Shown: positions 51,920-61,381 of the stretch, piece after piece
How positions within the stretch are numbered: the first letter of the stretch is position 1
How the letters are laid out: each line of letters begins with the position of its first letter
DNA from: Bacteroidota bacterium
GTDB lineage: Bacteria; Bacteroidota; Bacteroidia; Palsa-948
Direction: 5' to 3'
DNA length: 64,000 nucleotides
Assembly: GCA_016195025.1 (NCBI GenBank)
Contig: JACQAL010000052.1
Span: 21,262 to 85,261, forward strand
Position numbers and translations under genes: made by a program
Notes under the pieces: model-generated
The model's input: only the letters and a program-made list of their open reading frames with translations
What the model was told of the DNA's origin: nothing
Databases searched by the model: none

Positions 51920-52006
51920 ACTCGTCTCCGATATATCGGAGCGGTGCCGTACTTTTGTCGGACAGCAAATGACTATTGAATGACGGTTGCTTGTTTTGAT
52001 TTCTCC
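51893..52006. repeat. Duplicated 3'-end module, copy 1
   Basis: Identical at 112 of 114 positions to 57692-57805. It spans the last codons of cargo A (KKIIISAE), the palindrome CTCCGATATATCGGAG, a promoter-like GCCGTACTTTTG, and the last codons of solenoid gene 1. Confidence 0.9.
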
Positions 52007-53505
52007 CTCACCGTTTCTGTAAAAGTGCGGTTTTGGATTTTGCTTTCGAGCCAGTTTCTAAAATCAAAATATTCGTACGCAGTTTTAAGAGCCGGCTCAT
52101 CGGCAGAAGCGGACAATTCTTTTTGAAGAAGAGAAAATATTTCTTTATGCCGCTGCGTATCCTCTGTTCTGGAAATTTTACGAAACGATTTCAGCATTAG
52201 TTTTTCCAAACCGTACAGGCGGTTTCGTTTTGAAAGAAAACGCTCGGAAGATTGAATGGCATACGGGAGCATATCAAGGTTGCCGATTTCGAAATGCACA
52301 ATCAGATTTAAAATGCGCGCCATGCTGTGAAGGTCTTCGCGCGAAGAATCGGTATCGTTCAGTATTTTATTCAGCCAGCGGAGCGCATCCGAAAATTTTC
52401 CTGCCATGAAAAAAATATAAAAAGTGTTATGATACAGCACGAGCAAATGTTCGCGCGGAATTTTATTTTTGAATTTCGCCAGTCCTTCTTCCAGTTGCGG
52501 AATGGCCGGCAGTGCTTTTTCGGGTTCGCCAATAGTTGTATAGAGGTAAAATTCGAGCATGAACGAGCGTGAAAAAATCCGGACACGTGTGTACTCCGAA
52601 CGCGCATGCAGGTGGCGGATTTTCAGAATGCAGGCAAGCGCTTCATCGTATTTTTTAAAGTACAAACAAGCCGCAACCAAATTGTTAAGCAAACCGATGT
52701 AAGGATTTATTTTTTCTCCGATAATTTTTTTATCGCTCTCCATCATTTCCAGATGCTTTCTGCACCATTTGTAAAGATTTTTCCAGTCCTGGAGGACGAA
52801 ACAAAAAATTTCATTTGTGAAAAAATAATTTATGCGCGATTCAATGGTGCGCGGTTTCGATTTGGAAACCCGTGAAAGTATTTTCTTTAATTTGCTTCGC
52901 TGTGTTGTGCTGTGCAAATGCCCCGTTTTCGCAGAGGAAAAAAACATTTCCCCATAAACACGCCAATAATCATTGTCGCTCTGAATGGTTTCAAGCGTTC
53001 GCTTTTCTTCTTCATACAGATGATTTATTTTTTCAAGCGAGTGGGTGCCGCCTGCCGCTGCGTTGATGATTTTTTTCTCCCAATAAAAAACTTCAGGAAG
53101 AAGATGAAACAATTCATGGTGATAAGCAATTTGTTTTGCACGATGGATAAGTTTGGTGCATTGCGAATAAAGCCCTTTCTCAAAAAGGATTTCTGTCTGG
53201 CGGAAAATATTTTTCAGTTGAGCAGAAACGGAATTGTCGGAATGAAAAGCAGTGAGTGCTTTTAAAATCAGCCGGTAGAGATAACTTTTCAAATCAGGCA
53301 ATTGCTTTTTGCCAAAGCGCTTTTGCTCGCGCAAAATGTCTTTCTCATCATACGCATCCTGCCTGACAATGGAATCAAATAATGATGCGTATTTATTCTG
53401 TCTGCCAATGGTGTGTCGGGATGCATAAAGTTTGAAATATCGTTTTTCCGACTGGCTGAGAGATTTTATGAGTTGAAACAGTTCTTGTGAATTAATTCTT
53501 GACAT
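51973..53505 (-). CDS. Cytoplasmic alpha-solenoid protein 1, uncharacterised family
   Basis: A 510-residue protein without signal peptide or membrane helix. It starts with a conserved helical module (LFQLIKSLSQSEKRYFKLYA ... KYASLFDSIVRQDAYDEKDI ... LYRLILKALTAFH, ~7-92), continues as TPR-like helix pairs (ILFEKGLYSQCTKLIHRAKQIA; FFMAGKFSDALRWLNKIL; ~100-440), and ends in a signature NWLESKIQNRTF ... EKSKQATVIQ shared with its paralog at 57772-59301. I recognise no named family; an N-terminal DNA- or protein-binding helical module plus TPR sensor is possible. It is divergent from cargo B and convergent with cargo A. The start is the only ATG that keeps the conserved N-terminus. Confidence 0.8.
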   Translation of the reverse strand: MSRINSQELFQLIKSLSQSEKRYFKLYASRHTIGRQNKYASLFDSIVRQDAYDEKDILREQKRFGKKQLPDLKSYLYRLILKALTAFHSDNSVSAQLKNIFRQTEILFEKGLYSQCTKLIHRAKQIAYHHELFHLLPEVFYWEKKIINAAAGGTHSLEKINHLYEEEKRTLETIQSDNDYWRVYGEMFFSSAKTGHLHSTTQRSKLKKILSRVSKSKPRTIESRINYFFTNEIFCFVLQDWKNLYKWCRKHLEMMESDKKIIGEKINPYIGLLNNLVAACLYFKKYDEALACILKIRHLHARSEYTRVRIFSRSFMLEFYLYTTIGEPEKALPAIPQLEEGLAKFKNKIPREHLLVLYHNTFYIFFMAGKFSDALRWLNKILNDTDSSREDLHSMARILNLIVHFEIGNLDMLPYAIQSSERFLSKRNRLYGLEKLMLKSFRKISRTEDTQRHKEIFSLLQKELSASADEPALKTAYEYFDFRNWLESKIQNRTFTETVREKSKQATVIQ

Positions 53506-53516
53506 CCGATATAATT

Positions 53517-53541
53517 AGTTAATTGTTAATAGTTAATTGTT
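53517..53541. repeat. Direct repeat in the solenoid-1 leader
   Basis: AGTTAATTGTT occurs at 53517-53527 and 53531-53541, 14 bases apart, 12 bases before the solenoid-1 start codon. It could be an operator or merely low-complexity stutter. Confidence 0.5.
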
Positions 53542-53682
53542 CATCATTTGAAAGAAAATTCTAAAATTAAAGATATAAAATAATATGTTTCTATTTCGCA
53601 TATTCGCAGAGATTTATTATTCATACAATTTTGACTTCCGATAAAACAGAATATTTGATTTTCCCTCTTGATAAATAGTGTG

Positions 53683-59301: not shown

Positions 59302-59423
59302 GTGTAAATCTACATTTTAATTGCAAACAGAAGATTAATAATAATAGCACTGTATACTTACATACAGCACATAAAATTGGTTTGTTATCTAATTCAGAAA
59401 CCTTATAATAGCAGAAATATATC

Positions 59424-59454
59424 TTGCCAAACATGTTATTTGTAATTACTTTTA
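59424..59454 (+). promoter_or_regulatory. Likely promoter of cargo D
   Basis: TTG (59424-59426), 20 bases, then TACTTTTA (59447-59454; 7 of 8 to TAnnTTTG). The ATG is 32 bases downstream. It sits in the divergent region shared with solenoid gene 2. Confidence 0.5.
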
Positions 59455-59485
59455 CATTATCAAACAAACCAGTAATTCATCTTCA

Positions 59486-61381
59486 ATGTACAATTACTTT
59501 TTTCAAACAAATCCCGCGCATCAATGCAAGCCAATAAACCGGATGGTGTTTGTAGCCACTGTCCTGTCAACAATTATTATTCTGCTGTGTTCTTTTTCTC
59601 TTTTCGCTCAAAAAATTGCAGCGGGAGAAGCCCATTCTCTTTTTGTTTGCTCAGATGGCTCGGTAATGGCAACAGGGCGCAATAGCACCTATGGCGCCTG
59701 TGGCACAGGAAGTACTTGCTGCGACTTATGCACTCCCGCAAAGGTAAAGACAGGCGCATCGGGCTGCGTAACTAATTTATGCAGCATCACAGCCGTTGCT
59801 GCCGGAGGGGTTCATTCACTCGCCTTGAAGAGTGATGGAACTGTGTGGTCTTGGGGATATGACCAAGACCCTATATCTTTGGCGGTAACCGGACAATTGG
59901 GCAATGGCGATGCCACAGGCGCAACTCAAAGCGCACCTGTGCAGGTAGTGGCAGGCGCATCGGGCTGCGCAACCAATTTATGCAGCATCACAGCCATCGC
60001 GGCAGGAGGTTTACATTCCCTTGCCTTGAAAAGTGATGGCACCGTGTGGGCGTGGGGAGATAATACTTACGGGCAGTTAGGTGACGGCACCAATACGGCA
60101 AGAATCACACCTGTAAAAGTAACGGTTCTCACAGGCACTGTTACAGCCATTGCAGCAGGAAAATATCATTCACTTGCCTTAAAGAGCGATGGAAGCGTGT
60201 GGGCGTGGGGAAGAAACGATAATACTTATGGTCAGTTAGGCGATGGCACACTGATAAATAGAAACGCTCCTGTGCGTGTAGTAACAGGCGCATCGGGATG
60301 CGCCACTTATTTATGCGGCATCACAGCCATAGCAGCAGGAGCAAATCATTCCATGGCTGTTGGGAGCGGTGGCTCTGTGTTTGCCTGGGGAAGCAATACG
60401 GGTGGTGAATTAGGTGATAATACTACAACTCCCCGTTCCACACCCGTGCAGGTTCTGACAGGTGCATCGGGATGCGCAACTTATTTATGCAGCATTACAG
60501 CAGTTGCTGCAGGAAACAACCATTCCAAAGCGTTAAAGAGCGATGGCACTGTGTGGGCTTGGGGAACAGATGTGAACGGAGAAATGGGAGTCAACGGAGG
60601 TCAATCAAACACTCCGGTGCAGGTTCACGGTGTTAATAATTCAGGACTTTTAACTGGCACTGCTCTTGCCCCTGGCGGAGCAGGAGCGGCTCATGCCCTT
60701 GCTTTAAAGAGCGATGGAACAGTGGCGGCTTGGGGAAGTGATTTATCCGGACAATTAGGCGCTACTGGTTTTGATTGCACTTGCGGATGCGGCAATCCCA
60801 CGGTTGCATATTATCCTGTGAATCCATCGGGGTTATGCGCCATAACTCTTCCCATAGAATTGCTTTCCTTCACGGGAATCTGTGACGGAGAAAAAAATAT
60901 TCTTTACTGGTCAACAGCCACAGAAATAAACAATGATTATTTTTCTATTGAAAGAAGTTCTGATGGAAAAGTTTTCGAAGAAATAGGAAAAGTAAACGGA
61001 GCAGGAAATTCTTCCGCTGTCCGCAATTATGAATTTATAGATGCTGAACTGCAATCTGCTGCCACTTTCTACTACAAAATAAAGCAAGTGGACTATGACG
61101 GCAAGTTTGAATACTACAGCCCTATTTCGATAAACTGCAATGCAGAACAAGGCGTTACTGTTTTGCCCACGCTTTCTTCCATTGGTTATTTCACCGTCCT
61201 TGGAAAAGGAAAAGCAGATGAAATTGCGGTGTACGATTTGCTTGGGCAAAAGGTCTTCGAAGCAAAGAACGAACTGCTGCCTTATGTAATAAACATGGAA
61301 GCGGCAGGCAATGCTATTTTTCTTGTTTCTATAACAGCAGACAAAAAGACAAGCAACAAAAAAATAATCAGCACCCGGTAA
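59486..61381 (+). CDS. Secreted RCC1-repeat protein with T9SS domain and N-terminal extension (cargo D)
   Basis: A 631-residue protein. Residues 1-21 (MYNYFFQTNPAHQCKPINRM, then V) match the extension of cargo B at 10 of 21 positions without gaps and precede a signal segment (~22-42, SLFAQ). Six to seven RCC1 repeats follow (~45-430; ALKSDGTVWAWGDNTYGQLGDGTNTAR), then a FN3-like LPIELLSFTG domain (~450-555) and a C-terminal sorting domain of reduced form (TVLPTLSSIGYF ... NKKIISTR). The RCC1 part is of the kind at the N-terminus of the giant 4625-residue protein. Divergent from solenoid gene 2. Its 3' end is duplicated in cargo E. Confidence 0.87.
   Translation: MYNYFFQTNPAHQCKPINRMVFVATVLSTIIILLCSFSLFAQKIAAGEAHSLFVCSDGSVMATGRNSTYGACGTGSTCCDLCTPAKVKTGASGCVTNLCSITAVAAGGVHSLALKSDGTVWSWGYDQDPISLAVTGQLGNGDATGATQSAPVQVVAGASGCATNLCSITAIAAGGLHSLALKSDGTVWAWGDNTYGQLGDGTNTARITPVKVTVLTGTVTAIAAGKYHSLALKSDGSVWAWGRNDNTYGQLGDGTLINRNAPVRVVTGASGCATYLCGITAIAAGANHSMAVGSGGSVFAWGSNTGGELGDNTTTPRSTPVQVLTGASGCATYLCSITAVAAGNNHSKALKSDGTVWAWGTDVNGEMGVNGGQSNTPVQVHGVNNSGLLTGTALAPGGAGAAHALALKSDGTVAAWGSDLSGQLGATGFDCTCGCGNPTVAYYPVNPSGLCAITLPIELLSFTGICDGEKNILYWSTATEINNDYFSIERSSDGKVFEEIGKVNGAGNSSAVRNYEFIDAELQSAATFYYKIKQVDYDGKFEYYSPISINCNAEQGVTVLPTLSSIGYFTVLGKGKADEIAVYDLLGQKVFEAKNELLPYVINMEAAGNAIFLVSITADKKTSNKKIISTR

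Follow-up and report, generated by a model that had tools for sequence, protein, structure and literature searches.

Why should two genes for all-helical, apparently non-secreted proteins stand in opposite orientation between genes for proteins of the type IX secretion system (T9SS)? This question is raised by a stretch of 64,000 nucleotides (nt; hereafter the window) from a Bacteroidota bacterium of the Palsa-948 lineage (assembly GCA_016195025.1, contig JACQAL010000052.1, positions 21,262 to 85,261). There, two open reading frames (ORFs) on the minus strand, S1 (51973-53505, 510 amino acids (aa)) and S2 (57772-59301, 509 aa), each lie head to head with one putative T9SS cargo gene and tail to tail with another. 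This gene order and the paralogy of the two ~510-aa all-helical proteins had been noted in a preliminary description of the window, and both were confirmed here. Our combined findings suggest, with a probability of about 0.7, that S1 and S2 are each a dedicated local transcription regulator of the cargo gene, or pair of genes, that they face head to head, namely cargo genes B and C for S1 and cargo gene D for S2.

Sequence comparison places S1 and S2 in the same family as RusR, the ribose regulator of Bacteroides, though at some distance. One full-length NCBIfam match was common to the two proteins, NF058569 (“BT2802 family ribose utilization protein”): residues 6-497 of S1 aligned with positions 4-500 of the 502 in the model (E = 4e-46, 158.1 bits), and residues 1-497 of S2 with positions 1-501 (E = 9e-48, 163.5 bits). 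This homology spans ~490 residues, and neither protein reached the curated cut-off of 550 bits. We take BT2802 to be RusR, which is an activator and whose primary paper is reportedly Glowacki 2020. In a 2025 study (PMC12596196), RusR is treated as a regulator of ribose scavenging in Bacteroides thetaiotaomicron. Pfam returned only sub-threshold matches for S1 and S2, mostly to families resembling tetratricopeptide repeats (TPR), and the anti-phage defence models of PADLOC returned no family at E <= 1. The genes of LysR-type regulators also lie back to back with their targets over a shared promoter region, as S1 and S2 do, but the two are not members of that family, with no LysR match in Pfam or NCBIfam at E <= 1. 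Relatives of S1 numbered 984 (E <= 1e-3) among 7998 candidate proteins scored, the identities of two of them being 77% and 64%, and the N-terminal signature SLSxSEKRY was family-wide. The idea that S2 arose from S1 by duplication in place was rejected, since the two are only 31% identical and have different nearest rows on the tree, that of S2 being from another genome of the same genus rather than S1.

The placement of family genes was scored in three sets of loci, using longest-ORF gene calls and calling T9SS tails with a hidden Markov model grown from two tails of the window and checked with NCBIfam and Pfam. In the genome of the window itself, a profile built from 12 rows found 14 places: full-length members at 12 of them, a fragment of 148 codons at another and a remnant of 35 residues at the last. 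Every full-length member had a divergent upstream neighbour, and 11 of these 12 neighbours carried a T9SS-type tail, the exception being a glycine dehydrogenase gene. The fragment (L022:93-539, minus strand), an N-terminal piece near a contig start, still faces a tailed gene and looks like a decayed copy. The same profile found members in 46 of 60 relatives, with a highest count per genome of at least 25. The relatives set comprised 80 regions hand-picked from the ~150 best rows of this search, in which T9SS-type members are over-represented because the search was seeded with members from the window's own genome. The named set comprised the 79 best loci of 444 relatives in a separate collection (Saprospiraceae, Ignavibacteria, Flavobacteriales, Flexithrix, Flammeovirga and others). 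The pooled counts exclude members shorter than 450 aa, those cut off by the end of a contig and one locus (L220) on the same contig as another (L066).

Pooling the three sets gave 174 full members, with a divergent upstream neighbour for 150 of 172, whereas only 152 of 1078 neighbouring pairs of genes (>=120 aa) in the same loci were divergent. Because family genes usually lie head to head with another gene or operon, each is likely to be an on-site switch for the operon it faces. T9SS tails were found on 81 of 137 complete divergent partners; among complete downstream neighbours the count was 37 of 165 (Fisher p = 6e-11), and among non-adjacent genes of the same loci 114 of 1057. By set, the divergent and downstream fractions were 11/12 versus 5/11 (own genome), 34/68 versus 15/80 (relatives) and 36/57 versus 17/74 (named). 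The preliminary description had expected homologs to keep company with T9SS cargo genes; the profile search and neighbour table bear this out for the tailed partners, and go against it for the other 56 of 137, on which the tail model called no tail. The last 140 residues of 139 partners were also compared with curated models at E <= 0.01, rather than at the curated cut-offs. The resulting classes, which overlap, were TIGR04183 (78), type B (TIGR04131; 6), type C (14) and leuA (11) in NCBIfam, and PF18962 (75), SprB repeat (11), S74 chaperone (5) and response regulator (4) in Pfam. Partner type followed the protein tree: in 86 of 139 cases, compared to 11 at random, a member and its nearest solenoid had partners of one kind (BLAST E <= 1e-3), and type changed five times on the 139-member tree versus a shuffled mean of 20.9 (FastTree, provisional). 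An attempt to correlate, genome by genome, the number of members with the number of tails failed, because tail counts saturate (at least 78 per genome).

Several individual loci extend the range of partners. A very divergent 498-aa member (L017:11653-13149, minus strand), 19% identical to S1, faces a 242-aa tailed gene, and a member 89% identical to it (L079|6) faces a homologous gene. Loci L117 and L134, from genomes G010 and G055 with at least 25 family matches each, have an alternating order of members and long genes whose ends carry SprB-like repeats. Members in L100 and L115 face large proteins with an S74 self-cleaving chaperone domain in place of a T9SS tail, and S74-type partners in L107, L108 and L110 were deduced from the tallies.

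Two further branches of the family face metabolic genes. Matches to NF058569 at E <= 1e-70 were found in 4 of 395 genomes, one of them over the cut-off (676 versus 550 bits), and in all four, including this over-cut-off orthologue of RusR, the member lies head to head with a ribokinase-like gene (confirmed by model in L264 and L266, judged by eye in L265 and L267). In the leucine branch the member faces leuA, with leuC, leuD and leuB next in L269, L272 and L273 and leuB alone in L270 (by eye), and with ilv genes behind in L269 and L273 (by eye); leuA, leuC and ilvD were confirmed by model in L269, as was leuA in L272. The culturable Flexithrix dorotheae DSM 6795 also carries a leucine-branch gene (L199). 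In 21 of 21 further genomes from two families (L288-L308), the best leuA match lies head to head with a member, ~160-230 nt apart. The leucine and ribose branches each form one side of a fully supported branch on the provisional 139-member tree. Since they face other operons, what the family has in common is the character of local regulators placed opposite their targets rather than that of export factors.

These branches bear on whether the solenoid could instead be a cytoplasmic chaperone or export pilot for the cargo it faces, with divergence being just a convenient co-placement. TPR-like solenoids often bind peptides, a peptide-binding TPR domain (that of LGN) is among the best structural matches, and many partners are secreted. 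However, the leucine- and ribose-branch members, with the same architecture and orientation, face cytoplasmic enzymes; genome G001, from the same genus, has at least 78 T9SS-tail matches but nothing from the family at E <= 1e-3; and chaperones usually share their client's operon, in contrast to the prevailing divergent placement here. We thus consider this explanation quite improbable, and the suggestion in the preliminary description that the solenoids act in folding or export of the cargo is not supported.

The leucine branch also carries a DNA element. A motif of width 12 in 15 leucine-branch gaps, one of which (L139) had no site above 9 bits, scored 50.7 versus 25.3-27.6 in four shuffles, and at width 14 the motif was tTTACgAtnTctAA. 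For L269, L270, L272 and L273 and the 21 further leuA loci, the operator predicted before leuA is TTTACRATnTCTAA. When the 230 nt ahead of leuA were scanned with the element matrix in genomes outside the training set, scores exceeded the shuffled 95% level in 20 of 21 genomes with a member and in 1 of 14 without (p = 5e-7). The 21 test genomes were drawn from 25 matching in two families, of which three others were in the training set and the fourth was G157; 20 genomes were judged to be without a member at E <= 1e-10, of which 14 had a leuA match and 6 had none. Both test families also have training rows, such that the test was held out by genome and not by family. An element of this kind is what a local DNA-reading regulator predicts, and the leucine-branch member is probably a leucine-pathway regulator of Bacteroidota. 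Among the items listed by an open-access literature search, none concerned a leuA-facing regulator. Transfer of the element to the other gaps was weak, and unconvincing for both the T9SS branch and the four RusR gaps.

In the window, the operator and both promoters are expected in the shared start regions, which are 199 bp long for S1 and cargo B (53506-53704) and 184 bp long for S2 and cargo D (59302-59485). The Bacteroidota -7 consensus is TAnnTTTG. At 25-75 nt before the start in 149 shared gaps, it occurred 31 times on the partner side versus 3.6 in base-shuffled sequence, and 37 versus 10.2 times on the solenoid side. A box 20-90 nt ahead of the start was present for 35 of 138 partners and 43 of 184 solenoids, the background among other genes being 129 of 1128. 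In the window itself, the two gaps contained only near matches and no exact one, and logos upstream of the boxes revealed nothing strong. The heptamer CAAACCA, a weak lead, occurred in 13 of 89 gaps versus 2.7 expected. No more than 60 nt from the start, it was present for 5 of 82 partners with a tail, as against 1 of 136 further tailed genes and 6 of 999 further genes, at scattered positions and on both strands. The S2/D gap holds two copies on opposite strands. No clear element emerged family-wide from perfect inverted repeats (mean best arm 6.48 versus 6.20 shuffled) or from common k-mers in shared gaps, and a motif search of width 12 on 10 gaps of the window's genome was too weak (27.9 versus 20.8-23.8 shuffled). 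Two cores picked by eye, TCCTACG and TTACGA, each conserved within single ortholog groups, were not clearly enriched family-wide (2 versus 0.2 and 8 versus 8.0 of 89 gaps).

The following points weigh against S1 and S2 being local regulators of their cargo. A search for named cores and heptamers over 89 gaps gave no operator common to the T9SS branch. This absence fits one private site per copy, but equally fits no site at all. The leucine element could belong to another protein, the families being few and non-independent. Finally, a partner of the same kind was found in only 14 of 52 cases when the nearest solenoid was less than 50% identical.

The predicted structure of S1 is all helical (predicted local distance difference test (pLDDT) 91.6, predicted template modelling score 0.87). 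Conservation and the model delimit a five-helix N-terminal domain at residues 1-95 (53221-53505, minus strand), which by alignment corresponds to residues 1-95 of S2 (59017-59301, minus strand). The preliminary description had pointed to a winged-helix fold for the N-terminal ~90 residues; the model of this domain (pLDDT 86.6) contains five helices and no strands, so that a beta wing is not seen, though a short wing could escape the model. The domain had no confident match in the PDB, and the fold lists exclude no helix-turn-helix (HTH) family. It is predicted to contact DNA or polymerase. Conservation of the middle relative to the head was 0.84 in the leucine branch and 0.64 in the T9SS branch (0.69-0.71 in 30-row samples), which suggests that the solenoid middle is the sensor part. 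In two genomes (G155 and G159), matches were confined to the first ~140-165 residues of frames of 517-712 codons, and the head domain may thus occur in combination with other C-terminal parts.

The solenoid of S1 resembles those of Rap, NprR and AimR, the RRNPP regulators of Firmicutes and their phages. The eukaryotic LGN TPR domain matches about as well; S1 has no sequence match among the solved chains and its N-terminal domain is unmatched. RRNPP receptors typically combine a TPR solenoid as ligand domain, an N-terminal HTH (absent in Rap) and a propeptide gene next door whose peptide is re-imported. The resemblance raises the alternative of a Rap-like regulator that does not read DNA, whose solenoid would bind a protein partner (a response regulator or RNA polymerase, for example) close to the shared promoter. 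We consider this unlikely, because TPR solenoids are generally alike and because the leucine-branch gene is accompanied by a sequence element, which is simplest if the protein reads DNA.

All five cargo genes are on the plus strand. Cargo A (49277-51919, 880 aa, Reg_prop propeller) is tail to tail with S1; cargo B (53705-56698, 997 aa, BNR_assoc_N) is head to head with S1; cargo C (56705-57718, 337 aa) is tail to tail with S2; cargo D (59486-61381, 631 aa, RCC1 propeller) is head to head with S2; and cargo E (61607-63199, 530 aa, sub-threshold DUF5122 repeats) lies downstream of D. The type A tails of A, B, C and E exceeded the curated cut-offs of PF18962 and TIGR04183, while the tail of D was below both (19.6 versus 27 and 18.9 versus 23 bits), with a type C match also under its cut-off. 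Elsewhere in the window (16587-30464, minus strand), a 4625-aa gene with RCC1 repeats, 18 Ig_7 stretches and laminin G-like domains has a T9SS tail above the Pfam cut-off, and encodes a giant, probably secreted protein.

A direct repeat joins the two tail-to-tail junctions, 5.8 kb apart. The first copy (51891-52006) covers the end of cargo A, a 53-bp gap with the palindrome TCTCCGATATATCGGAG and the last codons of S1; the second (57690-57805) covers the end of cargo C, a 53-bp gap with the palindrome and the last codons of S2. They agree at 113 of 116 nt in the core and at 85% over 225 nt, flanking a unit of S1, B and C. The palindrome occurs on the plus strand of the window only at these two junctions, and elsewhere in the genome only 39-40-nt pieces of the repeat match. 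Third-base agreement between S1 and S2 at shared residues stays at 33-61% over the gene and climbs to 84% in its final block. The C-terminal signature described earlier therefore has two parts of different standing. WxESKIxNxxF recurs throughout the family, but the full EKSKQAxVIQ was found only in S1 and S2 among 12 aligned rows; because it lies within the near-identical block that includes the gap and the cargo end, it looks like the outcome of recent local recombination or conversion between the junctions. Similar DNA was also found at the 3' ends of other tandem members, where agreement was 93% over 145 nt in L170 and 87% over 123 nt in L166. Of six such pairs, third-base agreement rose at the 3' end in L166, over the last ~200 residues in L170 and partly in L075, with no rise in L085, L175 and L117.

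Could the whole order then be a recombining cassette array, with the solenoids having no functional link to the cargo next to them? The junction repeat around the S1-B-C unit and the similar 3' ends of tandem members in L170 and L166 would fit such an array. Yet divergent partners are seen repeatedly in different lineages, in step with the protein tree; it is the tail side that has recombined; and two or more members were present in only 17 of the loci fetched, so that the head-to-head pair is independent of arrays. An array without function is therefore very improbable. The “uncharacterised module” of the preliminary description is better read as two independent regulator-cargo pairs and one recombined junction, in a family that has a named member.

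We propose that the N-terminal five-helix domain of S1 and S2 would bind the shared start region, or polymerase there, and that the TPR-like solenoid would bind a signal through its variable middle and switch the cargo promoter; since RusR is an activator, switching on would by analogy be the likelier direction. S1 would serve cargo B and C, and S2 cargo D and possibly E, while the tail-to-tail genes A and C would owe their position to local recombination and not to function. Control of adjacent cargo expression, one of the roles first suggested for the solenoids, thus gains indirect support from the RusR homology, the divergent placement and the leucine element, all read from sequence. S1 and S2 differ from RusR in that they face T9SS cargo rather than ribose genes, score 158-164 bits against the cut-off of 550, and belong to a genome with 12 full-length copies. 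They share family, size and divergent placement with the relatives facing leuA; however, the leucine branch forms a single clade in which the partner is always the same and a specific element is present, whereas members of the T9SS branch are numerous within a genome, with no common element found among them.

To our knowledge, how individual T9SS cargo genes are switched is mostly open, and none of the items listed by open-access literature searches concerned a T9SS-facing regulator. The genome studied here has at least 150 T9SS-tail matches. If our proposal is true, one local regulator per cargo operon would give a direct handle on them, with the regulator next door and the head-to-head gap being the place to look. 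It would also tie a family annotated as “ribose utilization protein” to a general type of regulator, with a likely regulator of the leucine pathway, whose operator is predicted here, among its members. More speculatively, and with considerable doubt, these proteins may represent a large unrecognised class of one-protein switches in Bacteroidota, with a RusR-like five-helix head on a Rap/NprR-like solenoid and more than 20 copies in some genomes, each head to head with one operon for cell-surface or secreted proteins and reading its own signal through the variable middle. Such a class would be a Gram-negative counterpart of the RRNPP regulators that sets surface display.

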